From positions 1-52,281 of the forward strand of contig JAFYYU010000013.1 of assembly GCA_017557425.1 (NCBI GenBank): DNA of 52,281 nt, written 5' to 3'. This DNA is from Muribaculaceae bacterium (GTDB lineage: Bacteria; Bacteroidota; Bacteroidia; Bacteroidales; Muribaculaceae). Below are positions 2,297 through 45,060 of the stretch, one piece after another. Positions within the stretch are counted from its first letter, which is position 1; each line of letters opens with the position of its first letter. The translations under genes and the position numbers were made by a program. The notes below the pieces were generated by a model. That model ran no database searches, had not been told where the DNA came from, and saw nothing but the letters and a program-made list of their open reading frames with translations.

Positions 2297-2950
2297 CTAT
2301 TTGATATAGGGTTTGATGGCGTCGCGCCAGATGAGATAGCCTTTGCCCATCAGATGGAGGCCGTCGTTGGTCAGGTCTTCCCGCAGGCGTCCCTGGTCGT
2401 CAACAAACAGTGGATAAAGATTGATCCAAGTCACTCCCTGGCGTCGGGCCACCTGTTCGAGCAGCACGTTGGCCTCGACAACGACATGGTCACGCCCCTT
2501 GAGCAGTTTCCACTCGTGCACGTCGTTATTGAACGGCAACAGGCTCTGCAGGTAGATTTTGGTCCTGGGGGAGCCCTGCTTGACCATGACGATGAGTTTC
2601 TCCATCGCGCGGGCGATGCTATCGGCACTCACATCGTGCGAAATGTCGTTCACACCGCTCAGGATGAACAGCTTCTTGGGCTGGCCCTTGATAATGGGAT
2701 CCACACGGTCGATGAGACCCTGCACGATGTCACCCACGATGCCGCGGTTCTTGATGTGCTTGTTATTGAGCAGCTCATTGAACTCGCAGCCGTCGGTCAA
2801 GCTGTTGCCCAGCATGACGATGTCCTTCTTGCCGATGGGCAACTCGTCAAAAAGCGTCGCCCGTCGCGCGTAGTACGGGTCCTGATTGGCCTGAGCCATC
2901 GCCGTGATGCCCACCAGGGCCATCACGGTCCACAATAGCAATTTCTTCAT
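2297..2950 (-). CDS. SGNH/GDSL-family hydrolase, secreted
   Basis: 217 residues from the ATG at 2950, chosen over a longer reading because it starts a signal peptide (MKKLLLWTVMALVGITAMAQ). SGNH blocks are visible: GNSLTDG with the nucleophile Ser (block I), the Gly of NRGIVGD (II), the Asn of SGVND (III) and DGLHL with the Asp-His pair (V). It resembles sialate/PAF-acetylhydrolase-type esterases that act on acetyl esters of sugars. It is the last gene of the peptidoglycan-scavenging operon, 25 bases after murQ. A plausible role, by inference only, is periplasmic removal of O-acetyl groups from MurNAc. The acyl substrate cannot be read from sequence. Confidence 0.85.
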   Translation of the reverse strand: MKKLLLWTVMALVGITAMAQANQDPYYARRATLFDELPIGKKDIVMLGNSLTDGCEFNELLNNKHIKNRGIVGDIVQGLIDRVDPIIKGQPKKLFILSGVNDISHDVSADSIARAMEKLIVMVKQGSPRTKIYLQSLLPFNNDVHEWKLLKGRDHVVVEANVLLEQVARRQGVTWINLYPLFVDDQGRLREDLTNDGLHLMGKGYLIWRDAIKPYIK

Positions 2951-2975
2951 CACTAGATTCTGAATTACTTGTACC

Positions 2976-3794
2976 TTAATTATCTGACCTGTAGGCATCG
3001 ATGGCCTTTTTTACCGAGCCGTGGAGCAGCAACAGGCGCTTGGCGTCCTCATAGGGGAGTTTCAATTCCTCTACAAGCCAGCGCGTGCCACGGTCCACAA
3101 GCTTTTGGTTGGTGAGCTGCATGTTCACCATCTTGTTGCCCTTGACACGTCCCATCTGTATCATCACGCTGGTCGAGATCATGTTGCAGATGAGTTTCTG
3201 GCCCGTTCCGCTCTTCATGCGCGAGCTGCCCGTGACATACTCGGGGCCTACGATCATCTCGATAGCTATCTCGGCAGCCTCGCTCACGGGGGCATCAGGG
3301 TTGCTGGTGATAGCGGCGGTGAGGCAACCATTGGCACGAGCGTCGCGCAGGGCACCGATGACATAGGGGGTGGTCCCCGATGCGGCGATGCCGATGACCG
3401 TGTCGAGTGGCGTCACCTTGTATTCCTGCAGGTCTTTCCAGCCCTGCTTGGTATCGTCCTCGGCATTCTCGACGGCATTGCGCAGGGCGGTATCTCCACC
3501 GGCGATGAGACCGATAATCCACCCCGGGGACATGCCGAAGGTGGGTGGAATCTCGCTGGCGTCAAGCACGCCCAGTCGTCCGCTGGTGCCTGCACCCATA
3601 TAGAAGATGCGTCCGCCCTTCTTCATGCGCTCGACGATGCCTGTCACCAGGCGTTCGATCTGCGGAATTGCTTTTTGTACAGCATCGGCCACCTTGTGGT
3701 CTTCCTGGTTGATCTCGGTGAGGATTTCATGCACCGATTTCTTCTCCAGGTTATCGTATAGCGACGGTTGTTCGCTAATTTTCACAAAAGCCAT
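2976..3794 (-). CDS. murQ: N-acetylmuramic acid 6-phosphate etherase
   Basis: 272 residues, close to the usual length for the Bacteroidetes form. MurQ cleaves the lactyl ether of MurNAc-6-phosphate to give GlcNAc-6-phosphate and D-lactate in the cytoplasm. The SIS-domain signature GAGTSGRLGVLDASEIPPTFG is present near residues 67-87, with Glu81 and Glu112 (NAVENAEDD) at the places of the two catalytic glutamates known in E. coli MurQ. The later VTGSSRMKSGTGQK motif is also intact. It lies 46 bases after the MurK-like kinase, which would make its substrate. The order kinase-etherase next to an AmpG-like transporter is as in the Tannerella MurTKQ system. Confidence 0.96.
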   Translation of the reverse strand: MAFVKISEQPSLYDNLEKKSVHEILTEINQEDHKVADAVQKAIPQIERLVTGIVERMKKGGRIFYMGAGTSGRLGVLDASEIPPTFGMSPGWIIGLIAGGDTALRNAVENAEDDTKQGWKDLQEYKVTPLDTVIGIAASGTTPYVIGALRDARANGCLTAAITSNPDAPVSEAAEIAIEMIVGPEYVTGSSRMKSGTGQKLICNMISTSVMIQMGRVKGNKMVNMQLTNQKLVDRGTRWLVEELKLPYEDAKRLLLLHGSVKKAIDAYRSDN

Positions 3795-3840
3795 AATTAT
3801 TTCAAATTATCATTTACTATCATTCTATTGCGGTCTTGCC

Positions 3841-4692
3841 TCACACATCGGCCGAGTGGTACTTCACCAATCCCTCCATCGGGTCTTTGATGACGGTTCC
3901 GATAGTGATGCCCAAAGCCTGGGCGGCCTCTTGCAGCACCGCCTTCTCACAGAAAGCAATCGAACCCACAAAGTTGCAGGGCAATTCCTTGTAATTGGGA
4001 TAGCTGGCCACGTTGCGGGTAAAGAAATCGGTGAACGAGCGCAACACGATGTTATGGATCGACGGCTCGTTGATGTTATGCTCCAGGAAGGGGGCAAACT
4101 GGGCCAGGAAACGATTGGCGGCAGGCTTGCGGTAAACCGACGTGATAATCGTCGTGTAGTCCAGGTTGTATTCCTTCATGAACTTGTCGCACAGGTGCTG
4201 CGGCAGCTGTTTCTTGAGGACATCGCCCACGAGCAGCTTGCCCAGGACGGCACCGCTGCCCTCATCGCCCAGGATATAGCCCAGGGGAGACACGTTCATC
4301 ACCACATTCTCGCCATCGTAGTAGCAGGAGTTGCTGCCCGTGCCCATGATGCAGGCGATGCCCGGCTCGCGGCCACAAACGGCACGCGCGGCTGCCAGCA
4401 GGTCACTGGCCACCTCGATCTTGCCTGCACTGGCGAAGTTAGCGCGCAGGGCGTTGACCACCTGTTGCTTGATCTCGTCCGAGATAATGCCGGCACCATA
4501 ATAATGGATCTCGTCCACCTTGTAGTTGGTCAGGTGGGGCATCAACTCGCGTTTAATCTGTTCCTTCATTTCCTCCTCGGTGAGAAGGAGGGCATTCATT
4601 CCGGTAGTGAAAATCTGCGCTACCTTTTCCTTTCCGTTGAGCAGCGTCCAGTTGATCTTAGTGGAGCCGCAATCAGCAATAAGAATCATCAT
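3841..4692 (-). CDS. murK: MurNAc kinase of the BadF/BadG/BcrA/BcrD family (MurK-like)
   Basis: 283 residues, ASKHA-fold sugar kinase. The phosphate-1 motif LIADCGSTK (Asp7) at the N-terminus and the phosphate-2/adenosine motif IMGTGSNSCYYDG in the middle are intact, as is the GDEGSGA motif. Family members phosphorylate GlcNAc, GlcN or MurNAc. Position directly before murQ and after a NamZ/MurT-like set makes MurNAc the likely substrate (inference from context; T. forsythia MurK is the precedent). The start could be either of two adjacent ATGs (4692 or 4689). The 46-base gap to the upstream membrane gene contains two TTAGTTN heptamers (4705-4718) related to repeats elsewhere in the window. 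Confidence 0.9.
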   Translation of the reverse strand: MMILIADCGSTKINWTLLNGKEKVAQIFTTGMNALLLTEEEMKEQIKRELMPHLTNYKVDEIHYYGAGIISDEIKQQVVNALRANFASAGKIEVASDLLAAARAVCGREPGIACIMGTGSNSCYYDGENVVMNVSPLGYILGDEGSGAVLGKLLVGDVLKKQLPQHLCDKFMKEYNLDYTTIITSVYRKPAANRFLAQFAPFLEHNINEPSIHNIVLRSFTDFFTRNVASYPNYKELPCNFVGSIAFCEKAVLQEAAQALGITIGTVIKDPMEGLVKYHSADV

Positions 4693-4738
4693 AATATTTG
4701 GTTGTTAGTTCTTAGTTGTATATTTGTTAGTTTGATTT

Positions 4739-5899
4739 CTAGATCTTGATGTAGATTTTCTTCTTGTAAAGGATGTGGCCAATCACCCAGTTGAGCAGCA
4801 CAAAGGCGATGGCATACAAGGCCGATGCCGTGTACTCGTTGCAGAACGAAGTGAAGAACCTGTAAACCGCACTGTGGATGGAGATGTTGCCGCCATCGGC
4901 ATCCTGGCCGACAGGGATGGCACCAAACAGGATGGCCAACACGGTACCCAGCACGTACAACGCCAACGGATTGACGCCGAAGGACTCAAAGAACCGCGTC
5001 CAGCCGCCTTTCTTGCCCTTGATATCGACAAAGTGGATGAGCATCGCCTGGATACACATCGCCATGCCACAGGTAATCATCACAAACGTCGAGGACCACA
5101 TCTTCTTGCCGCAGGGGATGCCATATTGCAGCAACCAGCCGGCCAATACCAATACACTGCCCCACAAGAGCAGTTTTGTGACACGCTCGGTGTTGTTATA
5201 GGTCGTCAGTATCATCCTTCCGGCAAGGAAGCCGATGAGCACATGGGCAATACACGGCAAAGTGCTCAAGATGCCCTCAGGGTCAAACGAAATCTGCTCG
5301 CCATAGGCACTCTCGTGGTACATGTGGTCGGTGCCCAGGATGCTATTGTCAATCTGGGCGATAATGTTATCAAGCGAGAACTCATAGCCATTGCCGAAGC
5401 CCAAAATCAGGGCATAAGCCACGAGAATGATACCGATGAGCCACGGGATGAACTTGCGCTTGAACAGCACAGCGCACAATGAGCCGAAGAAATAAACCAG
5501 CGCAAGGCGTTGGAACACGCCCAGGTAGCGCAAAGTGTCCAGGTTATTGACCGCCTCGCTAAAGGGCTCACCCTTGAACAGGCCGCGCACCAGGTGGCCG
5601 AACCACTGAACGGCCCAGCCGATGAGGAACAGGACAACAGTGCGAATCACGATTTTCTTCAGCAGCGGGCCCGACATCTTGTAATTGAATTTCTTCAGCG
5701 AGAATGCCATCGACACACCCATGCAGAAGACAAAGAACGGGAATACCAGGTCTGTTGGTGACAGCCCGATCCAGTCGGCATGCTCCAGCGGTTTATAGAT
5801 GTAGCTCCATGTGCCGGGGTTATTCACCAGCAGCATGCCCGCGATGGTGATACCGCGCAGGATGTCTAGCGACAGCAATCGTTTATTGTCTTTAGCCAT
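4739..5899 (-). CDS. NagX/HGSNAT-like membrane acyltransferase (DUF5009)
   Basis: 386 residues with about ten hydrophobic membrane segments. The N-terminal SLDILRGITIAGM segment and the loop HADWIGLSPTDLVFPFFVFCMG (about residue 40) match the heparan-alpha-glucosaminide N-acetyltransferase family; the His in that loop aligns with the active-site His of the human enzyme. Those enzymes pass acetyl groups from cytoplasmic acetyl-CoA to amino sugars across a membrane. Sixteen bases separate it from namZ upstream, and murK follows. Inference: it may re-acetylate glucosamine or muramic acid residues during peptidoglycan salvage. Bacterial homologues called NagX sit in GlcNAc-use operons, but their activity is not settled. 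Confidence 0.85.
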   Translation of the reverse strand: MAKDNKRLLSLDILRGITIAGMLLVNNPGTWSYIYKPLEHADWIGLSPTDLVFPFFVFCMGVSMAFSLKKFNYKMSGPLLKKIVIRTVVLFLIGWAVQWFGHLVRGLFKGEPFSEAVNNLDTLRYLGVFQRLALVYFFGSLCAVLFKRKFIPWLIGIILVAYALILGFGNGYEFSLDNIIAQIDNSILGTDHMYHESAYGEQISFDPEGILSTLPCIAHVLIGFLAGRMILTTYNNTERVTKLLLWGSVLVLAGWLLQYGIPCGKKMWSSTFVMITCGMAMCIQAMLIHFVDIKGKKGGWTRFFESFGVNPLALYVLGTVLAILFGAIPVGQDADGGNISIHSAVYRFFTSFCNEYTASALYAIAFVLLNWVIGHILYKKKIYIKI

Positions 5900-5915
5900 A
5901 ATTCTTCAGTTAGGA

Positions 5916-7172
5916 TTAGTGATAAAGGTAATACTTTGCCGAACGGATCTTGAAGACCTCAACGTCCTTGTTCCAGTAGTCGGCGATATCCTCGACACGG
6001 TAGCGCTTAATGAAGCGCTCACGGATCTCCTTGGTACCGCACACCTTGTCGAACATGTTGTAACGCTTGGCGTTCTGCTCGAACAGTTCGACCTGGGGAT
6101 ACATCTCATGGATAACCTGCAGGAAATAGAACTGCGTCAGGCACAGGTCGGCTGCATCGGGGTCTGTGATGTAGGTCTGCACGCCGTGCACCTCCTGCAG
6201 TGACTTGTCCACAGCCACGCTCAAGGCAAAGAACGGCTTGTAGTTGATTGGCCTAAAGTGCATGCCAGGCAGGTTGAGGGCATTCATGTTTATCGCCAGC
6301 GAGTCAGCGTTGATCCACGAGGCGGCAAACGTCTGGAAAGGCAATGTATAGCCGATGCCGGTGTTGAAGATGTACAACTCGCCCAGGATGCCCGAAACGG
6401 GATAGAAAAAAGCGCTCTCGGGGGTAGGAATCTGCGGCGAGGGAGCCACCCAAGGCATACCCGTGTCGCGGAACTTCATGTCGCGCGTCCAACCCTCCAT
6501 CGGGATGACGGTCAACTTGCACTTGCGGTCGGTCTTGGACTCCTGGCCGATAATGCCCTCCTCGTTAAGGAAGATAGCCAGTTCACCAGGGGTGAGGCCA
6601 TAGATATAGGGGATGGCATACTTGCTCACAAACGAGAAATAGCCCGGCTCGACGAGGTTGCCCTCTATCTTGTTGCCTCCCAGCGGATTGGGACGGTCCA
6701 GCACCATGAATTCGGTGTTATACTTGGCACACGCCTGCATACACACGCCCATGGTGGCATAGAAGGTGTAGCTGCGGCATCCCACGTCCTGGATGTCATA
6801 CACCAGCACGTCGATGTCCTTGAGCATCTCTTCGGTGGGCTCATGCGTCTTGCCGAAGAGCGAATACATCTTAATACCCGTCAAGGGGTCAACAGCATCA
6901 CCTACGGCATCACCCGCATGGGCATTGCCGCGCACGCCGTGCTCGGGGCCGAACAGAGCCACAAGCTGCACGCCCGGGGCCTCGTTGAGGATGTCAACGG
7001 TGCTCTTGAGGTTGTTGTCGATACCGCTGGGATTGGTCACCAGCCCCACGCGCTTGCCCTGCAACTCAGCGAACCCGCCGTCACGCAGCACCTCGACACC
7101 CGGCTTGACAACCGCTCCAGCCGTCACCACCGCCATCACACACACAATCAAAAACAATATCTTTCTCATCAT
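5916..7172 (-). CDS. namZ: Exo-beta-N-acetylmuramidase (DUF1343), NamZ-like
   Basis: 418 residues with a signal peptide (MRKILFLIVCVMAVVTAGA). DUF1343 enzymes such as Bacillus NamZ release MurNAc from the non-reducing end of peptide-free glycan chains. Visible conserved parts are RVGLVTNPSG (about 41-50), FGPEHGVRG (about 74-82, with a Glu-His pair expected at the active site), VYDIQDVGCRSYTF and LDRPNPLGG. The enzyme should act in the periplasm on glycan first stripped of peptides by the operon's amidase. The start may be either of two adjacent ATGs (7172 or 7169). Gap of 40 bases to the transporter upstream, containing AATTCGCG repeats. Confidence 0.92.
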   Translation of the reverse strand: MMRKILFLIVCVMAVVTAGAVVKPGVEVLRDGGFAELQGKRVGLVTNPSGIDNNLKSTVDILNEAPGVQLVALFGPEHGVRGNAHAGDAVGDAVDPLTGIKMYSLFGKTHEPTEEMLKDIDVLVYDIQDVGCRSYTFYATMGVCMQACAKYNTEFMVLDRPNPLGGNKIEGNLVEPGYFSFVSKYAIPYIYGLTPGELAIFLNEEGIIGQESKTDRKCKLTVIPMEGWTRDMKFRDTGMPWVAPSPQIPTPESAFFYPVSGILGELYIFNTGIGYTLPFQTFAASWINADSLAINMNALNLPGMHFRPINYKPFFALSVAVDKSLQEVHGVQTYITDPDAADLCLTQFYFLQVIHEMYPQVELFEQNAKRYNMFDKVCGTKEIRERFIKRYRVEDIADYWNKDVEVFKIRSAKYYLYH

Positions 7173-7212
7173 CGTGAAATTCGTATTAATTCGCGAAATT
7201 CGCGTTAAAAAA

Positions 7213-8553
7213 TCAGTCGGTTTTTTTGCCGTAGTTGGGGTCGATGGTTTTATCCACGAAGTAGGTCACAATCAGCGTGGCAAAGCAGCAGGCCATTACC
7301 ATCCAGAAGAAGTTCACATAACCGATGGCTTCCTGGATGTAACCGGCGACGAAGCCCGGCAGCATCATGCTCAACGCCATGAAGGCGGTGCAAATGGCAT
7401 AATGCGACGTCTTGAACTCGCCCTCGCTGAAGTACATCATATAAAGCATATAGGCAGTGAAGCCAAAGCCGTAGCCGAACTGCTCAATACACAGCGCAAT
7501 CGTGATAATCACGACGTTAGTGGGCTGTGCAATAGCCAGATAGACGAACGTCAGGCACGGCAGCGTCATACATGCAGCCATCACCCATAACGATTTCTTC
7601 AGACCCACACGCGAGGAGTAGATACCTCCCAGAATACCGCCCAGCAACAGGGCAATCACACCAAACACGCCATAGACGGTACCCACCATCTCGGTACTCA
7701 GGCCCAAGCCGCCCTGCTCGGTGCTATGCACAAGGAAAGGCTGGCATAGCTTGATGAGGAAGCCCTCGGGCAAACGGTACAACAACATGAAGGCAATCGC
7801 CAGCAGGAATCCGGGCTTCTTGACAAAAGTCACAAACGAGTTACCCAACTCCGCCAGATTATTCTTAGCAGCACCATCGGCGCCCTCGTTGCGGGGCTTG
7901 TCGTCGGCCGAGCGCGGCAGGGCAAAGGTGTGGTACAACGTGATCAGGAAGAAGACGGCAGCCGACACACCCAGCGTGATTTGCCACGACATGGGGATGT
8001 TGCCCGTCTTGCTCTCGATGAGGCCGGCAATGAACACCAGTCCACCCTGACCGAAGACCGAAGCCACACGGTAGAACACGCTGCGGATGCCGATGAAAGC
8101 GGCCTGACTGCTCGGGCTGTGTGCCAGCATGTAGAAGCCGTCGGCAGCGATGTCATGTGTTGCACTGGCGAACGCAGCGATGATGAACAGTACCAGCGTG
8201 AACCAGAAGATGCTGATCGACGTGTTGCCGCCCGCAATGGTCGCAGCATCGGGATGCGGCAGCGTCAGCGTCAACAGGATGAGCATGGCGGTCATGATGA
8301 CCTGCATGGCGACAATCCACCAGCGCTTGGTCTTCACTACATCCACAATGGGACTCCAGATGCCCTTGAGGAACCACGGGAAATACAACAAAGTCGTGAA
8401 GAACGACATGTCGCCGTTGGGGACACCCATCTTGGTGAACATCATCACCGAGATGTTATTGACCACAAAGTAGGGCACGCCCTCGGCAAAATAGAGGGTC
8501 GGCACCCACCACCATGGGGTCTTTTGTCTTTGATCAATCTGAACTTCTTTCAT
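7213..8553 (-). CDS. AmpG/MurT-like major facilitator transporter
   Basis: 446 residues, about twelve membrane segments, beginning WWWVPTLYFAEGVPYFVVNNISVMMF, the start typical of the AmpG branch of the MFS. AmpG imports anhydromuropeptides in proteobacteria; the Bacteroidetes homologue MurT of Tannerella forsythia imports MurNAc. Other AmpG-like traits are GIWSPIVDVVKTKRWW (about 65-80) and the ATHDIAADGFY stretch. Being followed by namZ and murK/murQ, MurNAc or a MurNAc-bearing disaccharide is the likely cargo (inference). Located in the inner membrane. Confidence 0.9.
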   Translation of the reverse strand: MKEVQIDQRQKTPWWWVPTLYFAEGVPYFVVNNISVMMFTKMGVPNGDMSFFTTLLYFPWFLKGIWSPIVDVVKTKRWWIVAMQVIMTAMLILLTLTLPHPDAATIAGGNTSISIFWFTLVLFIIAAFASATHDIAADGFYMLAHSPSSQAAFIGIRSVFYRVASVFGQGGLVFIAGLIESKTGNIPMSWQITLGVSAAVFFLITLYHTFALPRSADDKPRNEGADGAAKNNLAELGNSFVTFVKKPGFLLAIAFMLLYRLPEGFLIKLCQPFLVHSTEQGGLGLSTEMVGTVYGVFGVIALLLGGILGGIYSSRVGLKKSLWVMAACMTLPCLTFVYLAIAQPTNVVIITIALCIEQFGYGFGFTAYMLYMMYFSEGEFKTSHYAICTAFMALSMMLPGFVAGYIQEAIGYVNFFWMVMACCFATLIVTYFVDKTIDPNYGKKTD

Positions 8554-8574
8554 AATCTATATCATTTTTATCAG

Positions 8575-9909
8575 TTAGTATCTCTTTTCAATCGAGGCGC
8601 CCACAAAGTAGTGCAACAGAATCTGTTTGTAGTCATAGCCCTTGGCGCCCATCACGGCAGCGCCAATCTGGCACAGGCCAGCGCCATGGCCCCAGCCTGC
8701 CCCGCGCAGCACGAACTTGCCGGGATAGCCGTCCTCGCCCATGTCGTGCTTCTCGACAACAAATGCCGAACTATAGAGGCACGAGGGTGACAAGGCATAA
8801 CGGATGGTCAGTTCCTTGCCGATGATGCGTTCACGCTTCTCGCCAACGATGCGCAGGCGGTACAATCTGCCGCTGGTGCCGCGGGCAACGGGCTGCAGGT
8901 CACGGATGCGGCCGTAGTCGATACCCGTGCGCTCTTTGATCAGTGCTGCGAGTTCGTCTTGGGTATATTCCACCTTCCAACGGTAAAAATCCTTGGTCTC
9001 CTGGTCATAGTCATTGAGGACCTGGGAGAGAATTTCGGGGTCGGTGGTGTTGCAGAAAGCACTGGGGCTCGACAAAATCCACTCGGCGGCATTGTCCTCG
9101 CGAGTGAGATCGGGAAAGTCCTCCTCGTTCTCGCCATCGCGACGTGCCTCCAGATAATCGTGGTGATGTGGCTCCCAGCAGTTCTCAAATTCCTCCATCA
9201 CGCCGCCGCACGACTTGGAAAAGCGGGCGTCACACAACGCGCCGCCATGCATGAGCACCTGGCCCCACGTGGCGCGAACGGCCTGCTCAACCTTCTGGGT
9301 CGTGGCACGAGTGATACCTTGATAACGCTGGCAGTGGTCGTCGGCGCACACGTCAAAGTTCACGTGGTCATCTCGATCCCACCACTTGACCAGCTCATCA
9401 GGTGTATCCATCATTTCGCCGGGACCTTCAGGATTACGTTCGGTGGCCTTTACCGTCTCCTCGGTGTGGATTTGTGCCAACAGCCAGCTACGGGAGATAA
9501 CGGCATGCGCCTTGAGCAGTTCGAGCGAGGCATGGGCGCTCATCTCGCTGGAGATGACACTCAACAGGTAATCCTCAACACTCAACACGTTGACGGGCGT
9601 CAGCTTGCCGTCCTCGACGATGAGGTGCAGCGCGCCCTTGAACGTCTGGTCCTCCTTCCGTTTCCAGTGGAAGCTCACGCCGATGGTCACCGCCTTCAAG
9701 GTAAACGAGGCTTTCTCGGCATCGACAGGCTCAAAGAGCAGTTCATCGTAGCGGTTACCGCCCCACTCCACCTGTCCATCGACACACCGCGCCATCTGGA
9801 CACCTCCAAAAATGGAGCCATTGACACGATAGTCACCATTGAGCACAAACTCAATCTCGGGCTCGTTCATGATGCCCACCCTCACTTGAGGTATCTGTTT
9901 CTCGTCCAT
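8575..9909 (-). CDS. SpoIID/LytB domain protein
   Basis: 444 residues. The SpoIID core is clear: NVLSVEDYLLSVISSEMSAHASLELLKAHAVISRSWLL (about 107-143), where Glu122 corresponds to the catalytic Glu of SpoIID lytic transglycosylases, then TWGQVLMHGGALCDARFSKSCGG and the C-terminal GAGWGHGAGLCQIGA motif. SpoIID cuts peptide-free glycan strands to anhydro-ended products. Odd point: the protein starts MDEKQIPQVRVGIM with no signal peptide or membrane segment, and no earlier in-frame start is seen, so it would be cytoplasmic unless exported by an unseen route. It lies 21 bases before the transporter gene. Confidence 0.88.
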   Translation of the reverse strand: MDEKQIPQVRVGIMNEPEIEFVLNGDYRVNGSIFGGVQMARCVDGQVEWGGNRYDELLFEPVDAEKASFTLKAVTIGVSFHWKRKEDQTFKGALHLIVEDGKLTPVNVLSVEDYLLSVISSEMSAHASLELLKAHAVISRSWLLAQIHTEETVKATERNPEGPGEMMDTPDELVKWWDRDDHVNFDVCADDHCQRYQGITRATTQKVEQAVRATWGQVLMHGGALCDARFSKSCGGVMEEFENCWEPHHHDYLEARRDGENEEDFPDLTREDNAAEWILSSPSAFCNTTDPEILSQVLNDYDQETKDFYRWKVEYTQDELAALIKERTGIDYGRIRDLQPVARGTSGRLYRLRIVGEKRERIIGKELTIRYALSPSCLYSSAFVVEKHDMGEDGYPGKFVLRGAGWGHGAGLCQIGAAVMGAKGYDYKQILLHYFVGASIEKRY

Positions 9910-9964
9910 ATTCTTTATTATCTATAATGTCTGTTGTTATTTCATCAAAAGAACCGTTCCTACA

Positions 9965-10924
9965 TCAGATCGGCTGAAGGTAGTCCCAGCGCTGGTAAAA
10001 TGCGGTCAATACCGATGCCAAGTCCTGCCGGGGCATGCACAGTTCGTCATAGAGGGCCTGGAGTTGCCCTGCTGTCAAGGATTCAAAGTCCTTCTGCTCA
10101 GAGATGGCCCAGAGGCCTCCCATCTCGGTCGAGGCCGGGCTGACCAACAAGCGTCCTTCCCCTTCGCCATAACAGGCGGGACGGTGCTTACGACGCGGGA
10201 ATACCACAACACGCCAGATGCAGTCGGTGACATCCCACCAGCACAAGACGTTAACCATGGGTTCCTGTGCCCTATCGGGAACAGGCAGCAGATCCAGCAG
10301 GCGCAAGACATAACGCTCGGCGGCACGCTGGGTCGAGGTCTCGATAGTGAAACAGCTGCGTCCCATTGTATCCACATATCCGATGAAGCCTTCATCGCCG
10401 TCGGCAAGCATATGGGTAGTGGCATGAGTCAGCTCACCGCACAGCGGCATCTCGCCTTTGGCACCTGCCTGGAAATGGGCATGGTCGGGAGCCGAAGCCC
10501 CACACTGCGGTCCGTTGTAGAACACGACAAAGTTGGGCAACGCCCTTGCCAGCGACAACATGTCCCCCACTCTATCGGCCAATCGCTGCGGCACATGCTT
10601 CAGATCGGCAATCGTGAGATGACGCTCGAAGATGGGATAAGGATTGACTTGAATCTTGTAACGCTCACCCCACAATATGGCCTTCTGCTTGACAGGCTGG
10701 TTCTCGCAGCACAAGAAACACTTGCGGCTCAAGAGCGACTGCCTGTCGATGGCAGCAGCCGATGAGCGCCGCCTTGCAGGGTTGTATTGCAGCACGATAG
10801 TGGATTCGCCCAATTCCAGACGGCGCATTTCGACCCCAGCGAGAGCCGCATAATTGCGTCCCGCCAGGTCCCAGTCACGCAGTTGCCTGGTTATGAGCCT
10901 ATCTATCGCCCTGCTGTAGTCCAT
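9965..10924 (-). CDS. DUF4922 protein, HIT/GalT-like nucleotidyltransferase or phosphorylase
   Basis: 319 residues, no signal peptide. Features of the HIT/GalT superfamily are visible: CFLC (Cys69, Cys72) as a possible metal site, NPYPIFERHLTI, and NGPQCGASAPDHAHFQAG (137-154) with the His148-x-His150-x-Gln152 arrangement of GalT and Ap4A phosphorylase active sites. Such enzymes move nucleotidyl groups between phosphates or sugar phosphates. The substrate is unknown; position between a glycosyltransferase and a SpoIID protein suggests a sugar nucleotide. Its start codon is only two bases away from a block of heptamer repeats (10927-11000), which occupies the place of a ribosome-binding site. 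Confidence 0.8.
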   Translation of the reverse strand: MDYSRAIDRLITRQLRDWDLAGRNYAALAGVEMRRLELGESTIVLQYNPARRRSSAAAIDRQSLLSRKCFLCCENQPVKQKAILWGERYKIQVNPYPIFERHLTIADLKHVPQRLADRVGDMLSLARALPNFVVFYNGPQCGASAPDHAHFQAGAKGEMPLCGELTHATTHMLADGDEGFIGYVDTMGRSCFTIETSTQRAAERYVLRLLDLLPVPDRAQEPMVNVLCWWDVTDCIWRVVVFPRRKHRPACYGEGEGRLLVSPASTEMGGLWAISEQKDFESLTAGQLQALYDELCMPRQDLASVLTAFYQRWDYLQPI

Positions 10925-10926
10925 AC

Positions 10927-11000
10927 TTAGGCTTTAGGTGTTAGGCTTTAGGTGTTAGGTGGCATCAGCAAAAACCTAATGCCTAACACCTAAAACCTAA
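10927..11000. repeat. Inverted pair of degenerate heptamer arrays
   Basis: Five head-to-tail copies of TTAGGNN at 10927-10961 (TTAGGCT, TTAGGTG, TTAGGCT, TTAGGTG, TTAGGTG) and four copies of NNCCTAA at 10973-11000 (AACCTAA, TGCCTAA, CACCTAA, AACCTAA), separated by 11 bases. The two arms are complementary, so the mRNA between the glycosyltransferase and the DUF4922 gene can fold into a long imperfect hairpin ending two bases before the DUF4922 start codon. Confidence 0.9.
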
Positions 11001-11011
11001 TGCCTCTAAAC

Positions 11012-12496
11012 TTATTTCTTGTTGAGGGCGATGCGTGCCTGCAACTCCCAGGTGCGGATGCGGTCCTTGTACAGGTTGTTGCGGTTCATCTTCTCGACGT
11101 CGAGAGAAGCATCGCTGTTGTCGTCCCAGCGGCGGCAAATATAGACGGGGTCATAAACGCGGCCAATCTGGTAGTAGCGCGAAATGTTCAGACCCAGAGC
11201 ATAGTCCTCGCCATAGCTGGTGTTAGGTATCTTCACATCACGCAGCACGGGTGTGTAGAATGCACGGGGAGCTCCCAGACCGTTGATGCGCAGGGCATTG
11301 TTGCGACCGTTGCTGGGTGACCACTCCCTGTGGTCGATGATGCCGGGAGGAATGGGATTGAGATGGATGTCGGTCATCTGATAGGTACCAACAACCATCG
11401 CCACGTTCTGCTCATAGAAGGCATCAACCATCGTCTGCAGCGTGTGCTCGTCCTTATAGATATCATCGCTGTCGAGCTGCACGATGAACTTGCCCACGTT
11501 ATGACGATGAGCAGCCAAATTCCAGTAACCGCCAATACCCATGTCATAGTAGTCGGCGATGATGTGGATGAGACGGGGATCATTATACTCGGCAATGGCC
11601 TCACGGGTGCCGTCGGTCGAGAAATTGTCCACAACCATCAGGTTGAACTTGAAGTTGCACTCCTGCTTGAGCACCGAGTCGATAGCGTCACGGATGGTGC
11701 GGATGCGGTTGCGCACGGGAATCATCACCGTTGCCTCGACCTCAAAGTCGCCCTGGTCAAACTCGATATGGCGGAAGTTGGGCACCTTTTCGCCATTCTC
11801 CTCGCGTGTGGGTGACAGATAACCGCCAATCTCCTTAAGGTGTTCGGTGCAGGCTTTCTCCATCTCGATCTGGCGGCCACGGTTGCGCGGATCCACATAG
11901 TCAAAGATCTTCTCGCCGCTCTTGCGGGTATCCAGCTCGACATCGCTATAGAGGAACTCGTTGATGTGGGTGATGGCAGCGAACTGCGACAACTTGAGAC
12001 GCAGGTCATAAAGACCGGCAAACTCATATTTCTCCTTCATCGCCTCGACGGCCTTCTTGAAGCACTCGCCACAGAAGAACAGTACCGAGCCGAAATCGAA
12101 GTCGTCCCTGAGGCTACCCATCTGATAGTCGATGACGGGAGCCTTGTCAGCGCCCTTTTCGGTCACGTTGTAGTGGTCGGCATAGAGCATGCCCGACTGG
12201 GTGTCGTCGCCCAGCTTCACGAAGCGCTCCATGGCAAAGGGAGCCATCTTCAGGGTGTCGTACTTGGTGTAGAACAACACATAGTCGGCATCGGCATGCC
12301 CGGCAATTTCCCGCATGGTATCACTCGAGAAAAGCACGTTGACCGGCAGCATTTCGCAGCCCTCGACAGGTTTCGGGTTGTCCACTGTGGCGAGCAGATA
12401 AATCTTGTTCACCAGTTCTTCACTCTTGAGATGTTCAATGGTTTGTGCAGCCTGTTTTTCACTGACAAACGGAATAAAGCAATTAATTCTTCCCAT
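11012..12496 (-). CDS. Family 2-type glycosyltransferase
   Basis: 494 residues, cytoplasmic, no membrane segment. A GT-A domain occupies about 255-480: ATVMIPVRNRIRTIRDAIDSVL, VVDNFSTDGT and LDSDD (342-345, the DXD-type nucleotide-sugar/metal site), followed by GEDYALGL. The N-terminal half (INCFIPFVSEKQAAQTIEHL... and YKYDTLKMAPFAMERF) looks like a second, weaker GT-A-like unit without a clear DXD. Donor and acceptor are unknown. It is second in the peptidoglycan operon, 51 bases after the amidase and 87 bases before DUF4922. A catabolic operon normally needs no glycosyltransferase, so its role here is open. Confidence 0.85.
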   Translation of the reverse strand: MGRINCFIPFVSEKQAAQTIEHLKSEELVNKIYLLATVDNPKPVEGCEMLPVNVLFSSDTMREIAGHADADYVLFYTKYDTLKMAPFAMERFVKLGDDTQSGMLYADHYNVTEKGADKAPVIDYQMGSLRDDFDFGSVLFFCGECFKKAVEAMKEKYEFAGLYDLRLKLSQFAAITHINEFLYSDVELDTRKSGEKIFDYVDPRNRGRQIEMEKACTEHLKEIGGYLSPTREENGEKVPNFRHIEFDQGDFEVEATVMIPVRNRIRTIRDAIDSVLKQECNFKFNLMVVDNFSTDGTREAIAEYNDPRLIHIIADYYDMGIGGYWNLAAHRHNVGKFIVQLDSDDIYKDEHTLQTMVDAFYEQNVAMVVGTYQMTDIHLNPIPPGIIDHREWSPSNGRNNALRINGLGAPRAFYTPVLRDVKIPNTSYGEDYALGLNISRYYQIGRVYDPVYICRRWDDNSDASLDVEKMNRNNLYKDRIRTWELQARIALNKK

Positions 12497-12547
12497 GATT
12501 GATGTTATTATATGTATTGTAATTATTGTTTTGTTCTATAATAGATG

Positions 12548-15500
12548 CTATTTCAGGTATTCCATGATGCGGCTCATCAGGCTGGTGCGCTCTTGGAGGG
12601 TGCTCACAGCCTCGATGGGGAAGCCCATGACCACGGTGCGGTAGTTTCCACGGTCGCTGGCGATAGCGGCAGGAAGGCCGTTCTCGCCGTAGCGCATCCA
12701 CGTGAAACCGTGTTCGTCACTGGCGCGGATGGCATCGGGCGACTCAACGGCATACTGCTTGTCGTTCAACTTGTTCACAAACGTCCATGCGCCAGGAGAA
12801 GACAGCCGGATTTCGGGGCTGTCAACGGCTATGACGGTACCATCGAGCGACGCGCGGCCGTGCAGACCTTCGTAGCCAAGCACTTCCTTGACGAATGACT
12901 TGCCAACCTCGTCATCATTGCCTGCAGCATTGTCCCACAGGTCGCTGCCCACATAGGCACCCGACAACAATACGCTACCGCCGTCCTCGGTGAAGCGGCG
13001 CAAAGCGCTCTTCAGGCCCGAGGTGAAAATCTTGAAACGCGTGGGCACCAGGCCACTGCCAATCTTGATTTCCTTCTGCTTACCCAAGATGAGATCCATC
13101 AGTTTGTAATCTCCCGTATAATAATTGTTCTCCAGGGCCTGTTGGCTGCACGACACGAACGAGTAGCCGATGTTCATGAGCGCCTCGCCATGCATGGCGG
13201 GGTAATCAAAGGTATTGCCTGCCACGTTCATCGTCTCGTGGTCGCTACGGCTGGAACCGAAGCCCGGCGCGTCGTCATCTTTCCACTCGAGGGCGCGGCG
13301 GAACTCGTACTGCGAGCCCAGATAGTTAATCTGCTGGATATAGGGCACACCGTGGTCCTTGTCGTCGTCAAAACCGGCACGCTCGGGGCCGTCAAACCAG
13401 TCGGGCGCGCTCACGCGGGTGAAGCCGTTAACCACGAGCACATCACCCTGGCTGCCTGCCGCTTCACCCAGACTCAGCGTCTCACTGGGGAAGCTGCGTC
13501 CGCCCTCGTTCATGGCGATGATGCGGTAACTATGTATCTTGTTGTCGTTGATTCTCACACTGTACTGCGGACCTTTCACATTGGCAATTTCCTTGAAAGC
13601 GCCATCCAGGCCCACGCGCTCGCACACGATATAGCTCGTTGCGTCGGCATTGTCGCTCAGGTCGTCATGGGTGGAATCCCACGTGAGCAGATAATGATGC
13701 TTGTCCGTCTTGCTAATGGCGAAACTGTTGACAGGCAGCGGCTGCACGACATAGCTGCGGTGGTCACGCTGGGCAATGAATTTCAACATACCTTTATATA
13801 TAGCGCGGCTCACGTCGAAGCGGAACATCGGGTCGAGGCCGTATTTCATGTCGGCGAAATTCTGGTGCGAGAGCAACTCCATGAGCACGGCGGGCACCTC
13901 GGGCACACGAGCCTCATAGTAGCTCTTGTCCCACATGCCGCGGCGCGTCCAGTTGGGCTCCCACTTGGCGCGGATGTCCTTGACAATCTCGGTCGAGAGC
14001 AAGTTACAGTAGCGGCGCGAAAGTTCACGCGGCGTGCCGTTGGCATACTTGCCGAATTTCTTGCCGCCGCTATTGGTGCAGTAGATGAGCAGGGTACCCA
14101 CAATCTCGTCGTCGGGTGTGCTTCCGGCATCGGTGTGCAGGCAGAAGGAGATGTCCACCGGTACCTTCAGGCCGCCGCGGTCGGGCAGCACGTCGCTGCC
14201 GCCAGCCAGGTAGTTCACCCACTCGCCGCGGCTGCGGTAGTCATCGGTATAATCGTTGATGCCATGTGAGGTGGAATAGACGGTATCGGGGAAGCCGGCC
14301 CACTGCAGGTAGTAGCGCGAGCCCAGGTGGAACCAGGGATGGTTGCCGCTACCGATGTAGCTGTATTCGACACCTTCCTTGCCCAGATATTTCTCGTTCT
14401 CCTGCTCGGCGGCGATGCGGCGGTTTTCCTCGGTAGGCAAGGCCACGCGACGAACAATGTTACCCTTGCCGCCGCCAACCTTGACAGCGTCGGCGGTGAT
14501 GACGGCATCCTTGTTTTCGCTGTGGTTTGAGACCTCGACGACGGCCTTATTCATGCCCTTGGCCAACGGGAAGGTTCCCAGATAGACCCACACGCCGCCA
14601 CCCATCGTCTGATCGACACGGAACTGACGCGCACCGCTCAGGCTGTTGACAGTATAGGTCACATCATTGGCGCTGTTGGGCAACGATTTATAGGAAATAT
14701 AAACGGCGAACTCGCCTGCCTCGGGCATATCCACATCCCACGAGGCGGTCGACAGTTTCTTCTTGTCCTTCTCGGCCTTGACCATGCAGTAAGTGCCCTC
14801 GGTGAAGGGATTCTCAAAATCTTTGTACTGAGGTCGCAGGAAAGCGAAGCCGCCATCTGTGCCGTTCTGCCACTTCTGCTTGCCGTTGTACTCGCTGTAG
14901 CCCTGCTGAGCCTCACCACCGTCGTTATCAACCACGGCGCCGATGTTGTGGGTATCGCGCTCGCGCGCGTTCCATACATAAGCCCCTGCATTCTCCAGCA
15001 TGGGAATGAGGAACGGCAGCACATAACTGTGGGTGTACATGTCCTCGACGGTCTGCATCAGGCGGGCACGCTGCCACTCCCAGCGGTTGAGCTTGGGCTC
15101 GAAATACCAGCCGTGGCTGGGCCACATCGCCACAATGTTGCCATCCAGGCCATGCTTGTAGTGGCGGTTGGCGTCCAGCTCGGAGATAAAGGGCTTGTGG
15201 GAGCGCTTATAGGCGGGCTCATAATCAGCAAAGTACTTGTTGATGTCGTTGCCGACGATGGTGATGAGCATGGGGTAATCCTCATACTCGCTACCCAGCG
15301 CCTCACGTATCTCACCGCGCATCTCCTCTACCCCAGCCTGGGTGAACGGCACGTCACCGAAGTTTTCGCTCACGTCCACCTTGACAGTGTCATTCTCAAG
15401 GGTCAACGAACGCACCTTTAACTCGCCCACACCCATGTGTTCAGGCAATTTACTCGCAATAATCCGCTGCACAGCATCTTGCTGCTCCTGGTTGAAAATC

Positions 15501-15571
15501 TGCGCCTGTGCCGGGCATACCACAGCCAGAGCAGTCAACACACTCAACAAAACTTGAGTTGATTTTTTCAT
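12548..15571 (-). CDS. N-acetylmuramoyl-L-alanine amidase with inserted golvesin-like domain and FN3
   Basis: 1007 residues, signal peptide to AQAQ near residue 24. Amidase_3-type zinc site: His153 (WPSHGWY), Glu176 (TVEDMYTH), His479 (FCLHTDAG) and catalytic Glu565 (VLMELLSHQ). The catalytic domain is split: residues about 228-370 (TDGGFAFLRP ... SWDVDMPEAGEFAVYISY ... VEVSN) form a golvesin/xanthan-lyase-like beta-sandwich inserted between the two halves. An FN3 domain follows (about 655-745), then an alpha/beta C-terminal domain (DVLVVNGFTR ... GSVLLSGAYVG) of ThuA/glutaminase-like look. Such proteins are often annotated xanthan lyase; the zinc residues argue for cleavage of the MurNAc-L-Ala bond. 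First gene of the operon, with a promoter at 15610-15640. Confidence 0.88.
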   Translation of the reverse strand: MKKSTQVLLSVLTALAVVCPAQAQIFNQEQQDAVQRIIASKLPEHMGVGELKVRSLTLENDTVKVDVSENFGDVPFTQAGVEEMRGEIREALGSEYEDYPMLITIVGNDINKYFADYEPAYKRSHKPFISELDANRHYKHGLDGNIVAMWPSHGWYFEPKLNRWEWQRARLMQTVEDMYTHSYVLPFLIPMLENAGAYVWNARERDTHNIGAVVDNDGGEAQQGYSEYNGKQKWQNGTDGGFAFLRPQYKDFENPFTEGTYCMVKAEKDKKKLSTASWDVDMPEAGEFAVYISYKSLPNSANDVTYTVNSLSGARQFRVDQTMGGGVWVYLGTFPLAKGMNKAVVEVSNHSENKDAVITADAVKVGGGKGNIVRRVALPTEENRRIAAEQENEKYLGKEGVEYSYIGSGNHPWFHLGSRYYLQWAGFPDTVYSTSHGINDYTDDYRSRGEWVNYLAGGSDVLPDRGGLKVPVDISFCLHTDAGSTPDDEIVGTLLIYCTNSGGKKFGKYANGTPRELSRRYCNLLSTEIVKDIRAKWEPNWTRRGMWDKSYYEARVPEVPAVLMELLSHQNFADMKYGLDPMFRFDVSRAIYKGMLKFIAQRDHRSYVVQPLPVNSFAISKTDKHHYLLTWDSTHDDLSDNADATSYIVCERVGLDGAFKEIANVKGPQYSVRINDNKIHSYRIIAMNEGGRSFPSETLSLGEAAGSQGDVLVVNGFTRVSAPDWFDGPERAGFDDDKDHGVPYIQQINYLGSQYEFRRALEWKDDDAPGFGSSRSDHETMNVAGNTFDYPAMHGEALMNIGYSFVSCSQQALENNYYTGDYKLMDLILGKQKEIKIGSGLVPTRFKIFTSGLKSALRRFTEDGGSVLLSGAYVGSDLWDNAAGNDDEVGKSFVKEVLGYEGLHGRASLDGTVIAVDSPEIRLSSPGAWTFVNKLNDKQYAVESPDAIRASDEHGFTWMRYGENGLPAAIASDRGNYRTVVMGFPIEAVSTLQERTSLMSRIMEYLK

Positions 15572-15609
15572 ATCTTGGTTCTACAATTTATTAGCGATAT
15601 CTAATGCAA

Positions 15610-15640
15610 CAAAAGTAGTAATAACCCATGAAAAGACAAA
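15610..15640 (-). promoter_or_regulatory. Promoter of the peptidoglycan-scavenging operon
   Basis: On the - strand TTTG (15640-15637), 19-base spacer, TACTTTTG (15617-15610), an exact fit to TTTG-N19-TAnnTTTG. Transcription would start near 15604, leaving a leader of about 33 bases before the amidase start. No other equally good match was seen inside the ten-gene run. Confidence 0.75.
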
Positions 15641-15818
15641 GCGGATCCCCCTCAAACCCCCATTTTACAACATTATTTATGATTTAACTACATTTTTTAA
15701 GAATAATTTATCAATATCCTGAAATCTAGAACGTTTCATTCTATGGAAGTGGGTGGTCACACCGCATGAGCATTGAAAAATAATGATAGGCATAAAATGA
15801 TAAATGAAAAGTTTTTTC

Positions 15819-15826
15819 TACCTTTG
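15819..15826 (+). promoter_or_regulatory. -7 box for the amidase cluster on the + strand
   Basis: TACCTTTG at 15819-15826 matches the Bacteroidetes -7 element, 34 bases before the chosen start of the propeller-amidase gene. No convincing TTTG element lies about 20 bases upstream, so this promoter is only half supported. Confidence 0.5.
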
Positions 15827-15859
15827 CCTTTCAGAATGAAGACTCGAAAAAAGATTGTG

Positions 15860-17791
15860 ATGAAAAAGCTTTTACTATTGATAACGGTATCATGCCTGTG
15901 GACGATAAATGCCACGGCAGTAGGCGTAAAACCAGGCAGTGTCAAAACTCTGGTGGACAGCTGCGGTTTCTTCCCGCAATTGAGCCACGATGGCCAATGG
16001 CTGCTTTACTCGCCCACCGAGGGCACCAGCCTGATGCTGAAGAACCTCACGACAGGCGTAGTGACGACTGTCGCCGACAAGGGCTACCCCGGCTTTGACG
16101 CCATTATCGGCAACGACGGCAAGGTGTATTACGTCACCCAGCAGCGCAAGAAGAACGGCCTGGTCTATCGCACGGGGCATTGCTATGACCCCGCTACGGG
16201 CAAGGACAAGGTGGTGCTCAAGGCCCAACACGGCCGCGTGCAGCCCCTGCAGGCCGCTCATGGCGTCGTCATCAACGGCGAGCGGCAAGTGTACCGCAGC
16301 AGCAAGCAGGTGGGTTCATGGGCCTATACGCGCGGCGATGTACTCTACCTGGTGGACGGTCCCGGCACGGTACGCGCCCTGCAACCGGTCAAGGACAGCA
16401 ACGGCTACTTGTGGGCAGCATTGTCGCCCGACGGCACTAAGGTCCTGTTTGAAGCGGCCTCCAAGGGCTTGTTCGTGTGTGACCTTAACGGTGAAATCAT
16501 TGCCGACCTAGGCGAGTTTTTGATGCCTTGCTGGTACAATGACGACTACATCATTGCGATGAGCAACGCGGGCAATCTTCGACTGAACGGATCGCGGATT
16601 TGGCTGCTGTCGGTTAACGGAGAGGTGTACAAGCCCATCAGTGACCAGGACGAGCGCGCCGTGCAACCCATGGTGGCAGGCAACAAAGTGGTCTATAGCG
16701 TCATCTACAGCGGTCAGGTCAAGCAGGTGGAGCTAGATATGCTGCCCGCTGCCCCTCAACTACTGGCCAGCGGCAAAGGAAAGACCGAAAAAGTGAAAAA
16801 TGCCGCAAACAAGCCGGATGCACCGCGTGTTTTCATCAACCCCGGCCACGGCGGCCATGACAGCGACGACCGCCATGTGCCCACGTGGGTCATCGGCGAA
16901 CAGGACACCCTGCACTACTACGAGTCCAACTCTAACCTGACCAAGGGACTTGCCCTGAAAGAGATTTTGGAGAACAAGGGATATGAGACCGCCATCTCAC
17001 GCAAGACAAACACGACCGAGGACGATCTGGACCTGTTTGAGATCGTCTCGCTGGCCGCCAACAGCGGTGCCGACGTTTTCTTTTCCATCCACAGCAACGC
17101 CACGGGCATCGAGAAGCGTGTCAACTTCCCTCTAGGACTGTACCGCGGCTGGGACGGCAAACCCGCCGTTGAGGGCAGCATGAAACTGAGCCAACTGGTG
17201 ATGAAACACCTGTACGGCAATGAGCTCGCCGTATGGACGAATAATCAGCGCAGCAATGGCGACTGGTCGTTCTATGACTGGGGCTACAAGGTGGGACTGG
17301 GTGTATTGCGTTTCAACAAGCTGCCGGGCTTCTTGAGCGAGGGGTCTTTCCATGACTACCTGCCCGAGCGCGAACGTCTGTTGAATGACACCTACTGCTG
17401 GTTGGAAGCGTGGAACCAGTCGCTGGGCTTCGACGAATACTTCGGCCGCAAAAAGCAATTCAAGAATGGCGTTATCGCCGGAACGGTGCGGTGGTCAGAC
17501 ATTCCCCGCTATGACGAAGACACGCGGCAGTTCGCCGAGGACAGGCTGCTCCCCATCAACGGAGCGCTGCTGCGGCTGTACAACGGCCGCGGGGCATTGA
17601 GCCGCGTTTACAAGGTTGATAACCGCGACAACGGCGTTTATGTGTTCACTAATCTGGAACCCGACAAATACAGGCTGGAACTGTATTATGGCGGCGAGAA
17701 CCGCTACATCACCACCAAGGTCAAAGCGAACAAGAACCAGACATCGTACAAGAACCTGAAACTTTCCAAGGACCAGAAACCCAAGAAATAA
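15860..17791 (+). CDS. TolB-like propeller fused to N-acetylmuramoyl-L-alanine amidase
   Basis: 643 residues from ATG 15860, which starts the signal peptide MKKLLLLITVSCLWTINATA; the longer reading adds a charged stretch before it. Residues about 25-295 are TolB/WD40-like propeller repeats (LSHDGQWLLYSP, LSPDGTKVLFEA, MPCWYNDDYI). Residues about 322-545 are an Amidase_3 domain with His330 (NPGHGG), Glu355 (YYESNSN), His411 (SIHSNAT) and Glu494 (GFLSEGSFHDY). A C-terminal CnaB/CarboxypepD-like domain (INGALLRLYN ... LEPDKYRLELYY) ends the protein. It probably cuts stem peptides from glycan in the periplasm or outside. Its two halves correspond to the next two genes. Confidence 0.88.
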   Translation: MKKLLLLITVSCLWTINATAVGVKPGSVKTLVDSCGFFPQLSHDGQWLLYSPTEGTSLMLKNLTTGVVTTVADKGYPGFDAIIGNDGKVYYVTQQRKKNGLVYRTGHCYDPATGKDKVVLKAQHGRVQPLQAAHGVVINGERQVYRSSKQVGSWAYTRGDVLYLVDGPGTVRALQPVKDSNGYLWAALSPDGTKVLFEAASKGLFVCDLNGEIIADLGEFLMPCWYNDDYIIAMSNAGNLRLNGSRIWLLSVNGEVYKPISDQDERAVQPMVAGNKVVYSVIYSGQVKQVELDMLPAAPQLLASGKGKTEKVKNAANKPDAPRVFINPGHGGHDSDDRHVPTWVIGEQDTLHYYESNSNLTKGLALKEILENKGYETAISRKTNTTEDDLDLFEIVSLAANSGADVFFSIHSNATGIEKRVNFPLGLYRGWDGKPAVEGSMKLSQLVMKHLYGNELAVWTNNQRSNGDWSFYDWGYKVGLGVLRFNKLPGFLSEGSFHDYLPERERLLNDTYCWLEAWNQSLGFDEYFGRKKQFKNGVIAGTVRWSDIPRYDEDTRQFAEDRLLPINGALLRLYNGRGALSRVYKVDNRDNGVYVFTNLEPDKYRLELYYGGENRYITTKVKANKNQTSYKNLKLSKDQKPKK

Positions 17792-44064: not shown

Positions 44065-44106
44065 TTACTAAAGCCTAAAGCCTAAAACCTAATGCCTAAA
44101 ACCTAT
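44065..44106 (-). repeat. Six-copy heptamer repeat NNCCTAA spanning a stop codon
   Basis: On the + strand TTACTAA, AGCCTAA, AGCCTAA, AACCTAA, TGCCTAA, AACCTAT (44065-44106). The last unit contains the GH18 stop codon (complement of CTA at 44103-44105). Same unit as the right arm of 10927-11000. Confidence 0.85.
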
Positions 44107-45029: not shown

Positions 45030-45032
45030 ATC

Positions 45033-45060
45033 TCCCTAATCACTAATCTCTAATCACTAA
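45033..45060 (-). repeat. Four-copy heptamer repeat TCNCTAA at the SusD/GH18 junction
   Basis: On the + strand TCCCTAA, TCACTAA, TCTCTAA, TCACTAA (45033-45060). It encodes the last residues and the stop codon of SusD (complement of CTA at 45050-45052) and runs to within four bases of the GH18 start codon. Same family as 39826-39853. Confidence 0.88.

Follow-up and report, generated by a model that had tools for sequence, protein, structure and literature searches.

A probable Tannerella forsythia-type operon for N-acetylmuramic acid salvage in a Muribaculaceae species apparently without MurA and MurB

What does a bacterium do with a set of ten genes for taking peptidoglycan apart and importing its N-acetylmuramic acid (MurNAc): does it feed on the sugar, recycle its own wall, or build its wall from what others have made? 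The question is raised by a stretch of 52,281 nucleotides (nt) from a Muribaculaceae bacterium (assembly GCA_017557425.1, contig JAFYYU010000013.1, positions 1 to 52,281; hereafter the window), in which ten open reading frames (ORFs) occupy 2297-15571 of the minus strand. We consider it probable that this is a MurNAc-salvage operon of the type with which the oral bacterium Tannerella forsythia obtains cell-wall sugar from its neighbours, residing in a species that apparently lacks MurA and MurB through loss. Judged from sequence, the operon would most likely feed wall synthesis in MurNAc auxotrophs, and not nutrition alone.

In the order of transcription, the genes encode an amidase-like protein, a GT2 protein, a DUF4922 protein, SpoIID, AmpG, NamZ, a membrane protein of the NagX/HGSNAT type, MurK, MurQ and an SGNH esterase, and both the ORF list of the window and profile searches bear out the places and families that a first-pass annotation of this DNA had assigned to them. 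The gaps between the first nine genes measure 51, 87, 55, 21, 40, 16, 46 and 46 nt, within the 16-87 nt claimed by that annotation for the entire set; the listed ATG of the last gene overlaps MurQ by 23 nt, although an alternative start at residue 17 (about 2950), ahead of a signal-like stretch, would leave a gap of about 25 nt. Upstream of the first gene lies TTTG-N19-TACTTTTG (15640-15610, minus strand), a pattern match that we take to be a promoter of the Bacteroidetes -33/-7 type. The general pattern TTTG-N17-23-TANNTTTG occurs five times in the window against 0.61 expected, the operon promoter being one of the five, and a promoter with identical 19-nt spacing precedes the same first gene in all seven relatives whose DNA reaches so far (11 loci were examined, four of which begin within the first gene). 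The well-formed promoter proposed earlier is thereby upheld.

The same annotation had named internal promoters or terminators as signals that would separate the genes. On the operon strand, the interior holds no further exact match to TTTG-N17-23-TANNTTTG and a single relaxed one, inside the GT2 gene; an exact match at 4697-4726, in the gap between MurT and MurK, lies on the opposite strand. Sigma-70-type matches do occur within the operon as well (22 in 20 kb versus 13.9 expected). About 85 nt past the last stop codon, an intrinsic terminator-like hairpin followed by a T run (2212-2188, minus strand) has 11 pairs, whereas the minus-strand hairpins inside the operon have five or six and fall within coding sequence; as a class, terminator-like sites are at chance level (18 versus 17.2 expected). 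That the ten genes form one peptidoglycan-salvage operon is well supported, and the short gaps, the one conserved promoter and the end hairpin make a single transcript likely, and only likely, because of the internal sigma-70-like matches and the chance-level occurrence of terminator-like sites otherwise.

What, then, of the host's own MurNAc synthesis? In the window's genome (85% complete, 4.5% contamination), the best murA match reaches 27 bits against a cut-off of 392.7 and is perhaps EPSP synthase, and a profile search of this 85%-complete assembly returned no match to murB, while murC and neighbouring wall genes are present. As the genome shows neither murA nor murB, MurNAc delivered by the operon would also have to reach UDP-MurNAc. 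An AmgK-like kinase (APH plus RapZ C-terminal domain) adjoins a MurU-like nucleotidyltransferase on contig C12 of the same genome, the latter scoring 135 of the 250 bits set as cut-off.

The double absence extends across the family. Among 297 Muribaculaceae genomes, murA occurs in 176, murB in 173, both in 171 and neither in 119. In a set of 59 family genomes, murA exceeds its cut-off in 36 and murB in 32; murC is matched in 59/59, 13 of them over cut-off (in G222 the best match, at 3.5e-22, could represent a different ligase, and G211, G223 and G244 have fragmentary matches). In an order sample of 198 Bacteroidales genomes, murA was found in 187; this sample includes three family members, of which the window's own genome is the one without murA, and outside the family 10/195 lack a match. 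One of the genomes outside the family, G168, is listed as 100% complete and has no murA match at E 1e-60. When only genomes of 90% completeness or more and 5% contamination or less are counted, murA is present in 125/204 of the family versus 161/166 of the order sample. Within the window's genus, both genes are missing from 29 of 40 genomes, including the single-contig genome G368, and MurT is present in 40/40; the 28 same-genus relatives without the pair are listed as 89-100% complete. In seven genomes (L261-L267) murB and murA are adjacent, in surroundings that differ even inside this genus, a pattern that could reflect low synteny but also that the pair has moved or been regained. For the same reason, a search for empty murA/murB sites gave nothing, G375 and G417, which share genes nearby, being the exception.

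Does the operon go along with this loss? Counting as MurT orthologs all matches with E below about 1e-149, together with one truncated at a contig end, 102/121 murA-less family genomes have one, versus 38/176 of the murA-bearing; a Fisher test on 101/121 murA-less genomes, which ignores kinship, gives p 3e-27. The anatomy of the operon was followed in the window, in all other family genomes with an AmpG match except G233 (51 of 52) and in nine order-sample loci. Of 23 murA-less genomes among the 59, 22 have an AmpG match. The block running from amidase to MurQ is seen in 17 of the 22 (in G219 it has no DUF4922 match above 50 bits), the other five showing as much as their contigs contain; in G243, which is murA-less and 81% complete, no AmpG match was found. 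The 36 murA-bearing genomes divide into six with the full block, three cut by a contig end, 19 with a short form that has neither MurT nor MurQ next to it, two with AmpG alone and six with no close AmpG, two of which (G200 and G211) have a MurT ortholog elsewhere in the genome. Two peculiarities of gene structure were seen alongside: in G368, G422 and G484, all of the window's genus, the MurT match lies in frames of 582-587 amino acids but is confined to roughly the first 338 positions, possibly a sign of fusions, and in 13 of the 53 family genomes with an AmpG match (for instance G227, G219 and G210) AmpG sits in a longer frame of 526-679 amino acids, in which an inserted stretch parts the two halves that correspond to AmpG of the window.

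On a tree of 54 genomes built from five wall-cluster proteins, the murA state changes at least nine times, and the tree does not separate gain from loss. Under a loss-only model 10 murA losses are required, and each of them is placed on a branch reconstructed to carry MurT; such branches account for 57.8% of tree length (P 0.004, a binomial estimate in which MurT was treated as unknown in G240, because of a contig end, and in G243, because of its 81% completeness).

A number of observations weigh against this interpretation. The P value of 0.004 presupposes that losses scale with branch length, that the root lies at the midpoint and that murA was never regained, and a test on independent pairs, in which G240 and G243 were scored as without MurT, was not significant (3.3 pairs for, 1.0 against and 4.7 with no difference; median p 0.63). 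MurT is present in 38/176 murA-bearing genomes; hence the operon does not require murA loss. Conversely, 19 murA-less genomes have no MurT ortholog, of which two (G438 and G448) have murB, completeness having been seen for few of the 19. The MurU-like protein does not discriminate, as it finds a match in 59/59 genomes and none over cut-off. The window's assembly is 85% complete, and murA and murB are adjacent in relatives, so that their double absence could be one gap. Finally, the MurT assignment depends on position and family. Both kinship results stand, and the link between MurT and murA loss is clear in the raw counts and moderate after kinship.

It is against these numbers that a purely nutritional role should be judged, in which peptidoglycan is converted to N-acetylglucosamine 6-phosphate (GlcNAc-6-P) as a source of carbon and nitrogen while MurNAc for the wall comes from murA and murB genes missed by the assembly. 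MurK and MurQ are catabolic, the operon can evidently coexist with MurA and MurB, and the assembly is incomplete; yet both genes are jointly missing from 28 same-genus relatives, one of them a single contig, and murA is nearly universal among good genomes of the order sample, and we regard this explanation as improbable. With somewhat less assurance than for the operon of this one species, we favour the wider view that MurNAc auxotrophy is more than a peculiarity of Tannerella and recurs as a lifestyle in Muribaculaceae, a large family of gut bacteria: about 40% of the sampled species (119/297) would have lost both murA and murB, with the state changing at least nine times on the tree, and these losses would fall in lineages equipped with the complete MurT-MurK-MurQ operon, whose members would build their walls from their neighbours' sugar.

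How would such a salvage route run? We infer the functions of the proteins in this organism, its auxotrophy and the roles of the SGNH, GT2 and DUF4922 proteins from sequence and predicted structure. Outside the cytoplasm, amidases would remove stem peptides from foreign (and own) peptidoglycan, after which SpoIID would cleave the bare glycan and NamZ would release MurNAc, the SGNH esterase possibly taking off ester groups such as O-acetyl. AmpG would then take in disaccharides and MurT MurNAc; inside the cell, MurK and MurQ would convert surplus MurNAc to GlcNAc-6-P, and the AmgK-like/MurU-like pair encoded elsewhere in the genome would make UDP-MurNAc for MurC. Most parts of the complete route from sacculus to GlcNAc-6-P envisaged by the first-pass annotation fit; no obvious step in it falls to GT2 or DUF4922, and the missing murA and murB had been overlooked.

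The evidence differs from gene to gene. The first gene (12548-15571, all operon genes being on the minus strand), which fills the 'xanthan lyase' position of the T. forsythia operon, encodes a predicted secreted protein in which Amidase_3 parts (6e-4) flank a Golvesin_C domain (7e-23). Its proposed identity as an amidase is weakened by an Amidase_3 score below the Pfam gathering cut-off (20.3 versus 27 bits) and strengthened by H, E, H and E positions, matched by eye on both sides of Golvesin_C and at least 90% kept in 36 sequences, which presumably are the residues needed by an amidase of this fold. The GT2 protein (11012-12496), recognised by profile match and predicted structure and with no signal peptide seen by eye, is highly conserved, at a mean column identity of 70% in 32 sequences (31 of 49 listed relatives plus the window). 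Its model (mean predicted local distance difference test score, pLDDT, 87) has two GT-A domains, and its best full-length PDB match is the chondroitin polymerase K4CP, with a poor superposition (template-modelling score about 0.39). The DUF4922 protein (9965-10924), identified by profile match, alignment and model (pLDDT 90.8), resembles yeast Ap4A phosphorylase and GalT-like enzymes, and H148, H150 and Q152 of its HxHxQ motif are invariant across 29 sequences, from the window and 28 of 38 listed relatives. The enzyme probably acts as a nucleotidyl transferase or a phosphorylase and not as a glycosyltransferase.

SpoIID (8575-9909), a SpoIID/LytB family member predicted to be a lytic transglycosylase for peptide-free glycan, scores 161.3 bits with TIGR02669 (cut-off 83.3), and its SSEM stretch is conserved among relatives. 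AmpG (7213-8553), a putative muropeptide/disaccharide permease, matches TIGR00901 at 3.7e-51 and remains below every curated cut-off (TIGR00901 174.1 versus 350, PRK11010 71.4 versus 756, PRK11902 85 versus 656 bits); according to the available excerpts of two papers, even T. forsythia AmpG shares no more than 24-27% identity with the E. coli protein (PMC5388701, PMC7670621). NamZ (5916-7172), a predicted exo-beta-N-acetylmuramidase, exceeds the Pfam gathering score in both domains (NamZ_N 6e-84, NamZ_C 2e-35). MurK (3841-4692), the predicted MurNAc 6-kinase, matches PDB entry 8oqw at E 2e-92 and keeps the S-P-L specificity residues, T94 of the published enzyme being S here as read by eye. MurQ (2976-3794), the predicted MurNAc-6P etherase, lies just over the TIGR00274 cut-off (309.9 versus 302 bits). 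The tenth gene (2297-2998, with a probable start near 2950) encodes the SGNH/GDSL esterase.

The seventh gene (4739-5899) needs separate consideration. The first-pass annotation had spoken of a single 'AmpG/MurT-like transporter' and of a NagX-like acyltransferase as an extra member of the operon; AmpG and MurT are two separate genes, and it is the supposed acyltransferase that occupies the place of MurT, for which family and operon position suggest a probable function in MurNAc uptake. Since the acetyl-carrying histidine of human HGSNAT is kept, acyl transfer competes seriously with transport as its function: the protein might be a transmembrane N-acetyltransferase like HGSNAT or NagX, re-acetylating muramic acid or glucosamine before another carrier takes it up. 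A MurT profile of 21 sequences (of 27) matches HGSNAT at 2.5e-34, and the histidine aligns with H40 of MurT, invariant in 21/21. Excerpts of published work describe NagX as distantly related to MurT of T. forsythia and propose acetyl transfer for it (PMC9007349), and the part available of another paper argues that DUF5009 proteins act like HGSNAT (PMC12423673), although the DUF5009 score of the window's MurT is below cut-off. Family and histidine are thus common to both; MurT, unlike NagX or HGSNAT, sits in a MurNAc operon and falls far short of the NagX equivalog NF046061 (123.9 versus 480 bits), and T. forsythia MurT together with MurK is reported, again in an excerpt, to let an E. coli murP mutant use MurNAc (PMC5790795). 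We therefore treat the acetyltransferase as a serious but less probable reading, and retain MurT as a carrier.

Diverging from the operon, on the plus strand, are the two further amidases and the second kinase that had been noted before, all of which were recovered. An Amidase_3 protein (15773-17791; listed start TTG, the true start probably being downstream) is followed by a protein of no assigned family with a signal-like start (17831-18733), by an Amidase_3 protein with a secretion-system C-terminal sorting domain (Por_Secre_tail; profile match, 18748-21141) and by a predicted second MurNAc kinase (22150-23016), three genes away from the operon and nearer to K1058 (8oqk, E 1e-99) than to MurK (8oqw, 2e-68). 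The product of 17831-18733 was considered as this second kinase and rejected, as it has no Pfam or PDB match and the real kinase is at 22150-23016. The extra amidases bear on the proposal that the operon mainly recycles material released by turnover of the cell's own wall and takes up foreign fragments only as a second task. In other bacteria, AmpG and wall enzymes of the periplasm work in recycling, and short AmpG forms without MurT and MurQ are common in murA-bearing relatives (19/36). However, recycling alone gives no net MurNAc for growth if murA and murB are truly gone, and the two additional amidases, of which one ends in a secretion sorting tail, point to activity on peptidoglycan outside the cell; we thus find a mainly recycling operon rather unlikely, and hold to supply of MurNAc for wall synthesis.

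How constant is the set among relatives? An SGNH gene stands behind MurQ in 61/91 scoreable loci having MurT and MurQ together, is absent from 30, and lacks room in four more (some genomes are represented twice in these 95 loci, as with L113 and L205); it is present in 14/14 of the closest named relatives (L161-L172, L184 and L196; MurT 84-91% identical), several of which come from ruminant gut according to record titles. The amidase gene adjoins GT2 in 32/32 scoreable loci, a further 50 lacking room, and is placed after MurQ instead in L156, L237 and L239. By these counts the amidase belongs to the set, and the SGNH esterase is an optional tail.

The gap between GT2 and DUF4922 (10925-11011) has the look of a hot spot for insertions, with a long hairpin built of short repeats in the window and in L172, other repeats elsewhere, and, in L169 and L196, a gap of about 500 nt that by eye seems to hold a small ORF. 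A conserved attenuator was rejected here, as among 11 relatives examined only L172 has a similar repeat. Elsewhere in the window, a Cleaved_Adhesin (gingipain-type adhesin) protein (574-2184) converges on the operon's terminator-like hairpin, a YceG-like (MltG) protein (38813-39820) is a possible additional lytic transglycosylase, and a SusD-like protein, a TonB-dependent receptor and a GH18 BT1044-like protein (44103-49767) likely form a glycan-use locus.

What would follow from the main result of this study, the presence of a known operon in a family that seems often to have lost MurNAc synthesis? Recurrent auxotrophy, if true, would help to explain why many Muribaculaceae resist pure culture, and predicts growth with added MurNAc or peptidoglycan, a cheap medium supplement that would serve as a direct test for uncultured members. 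Fosfomycin, an inhibitor of MurA, should leave these species untouched. Furthermore, if many Muribaculaceae need foreign MurNAc, peptidoglycan exchange would be a growth-limiting link in gut communities. Among the open-licence literature matches listed, no report of murA/murB loss or of a MurNAc need in Muribaculaceae was found, which is weak evidence of novelty.

How does the operon compare with known systems? According to the excerpts available, T. forsythia Tanf_08345-08385, published in 2017, reads xanthan lyase-gtf-gtf-lytB-ampG-ybbC-murT-murK-murQ (PMC5388701), is one transcript of nine genes by reverse-transcription PCR across junctions, ending at murQ, and starts at a site mapped 17 nt before the first gene (PMC5388701; PMC7670621); K1058, a slower MurNAc kinase, is directly upstream (PMC10465942), the species is reported to lack murA and murB (PMC7670621), and AmpG function, MurK function and MurNAc need were established by others. 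The first nine genes of the window reproduce this order on one strand, the match being one of annotation and order and not of T. forsythia DNA, and here too a K1058-type kinase is near and the host assembly shows neither murA nor murB. No Tannerella was among 80 loci taken from at least 527 relatives. In contrast to T. forsythia, the K1058-like gene is on the other strand, with two amidases and one unassigned gene between, and the second 'gtf' position is held by DUF4922 with its GalT/Ap4A-phosphorylase-like fold. Proteiniphilum, Petrimonas, Fermentimonas and kin (L199, L200, L203, L204, L206, L211 and L212) carry amidase-GT2-SpoIID-AmpG-(NamZ)-MurT-MurK-MurQ in one direction, but differ from the window by having no DUF4922 match above 50 bits and no SGNH gene, NamZ being undetected in L200 and L212. 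The short ampG form of murA-bearing Muribaculaceae combines SpoIID and AmpG, mostly with GT2 and often with amidase, DUF4922, NamZ and MurK in the same order, but has neither MurT nor MurQ alongside. The first-pass annotation had described a cluster larger than the known MurTKQ set; nine of its ten genes are already found, in the same order, in Tanf_08345-08385 as excerpted from PMC5388701. The operon type is thus already known from T. forsythia, and only the SGNH esterase, placed behind murQ, the last gene of the T. forsythia transcript, goes beyond the published nine genes.

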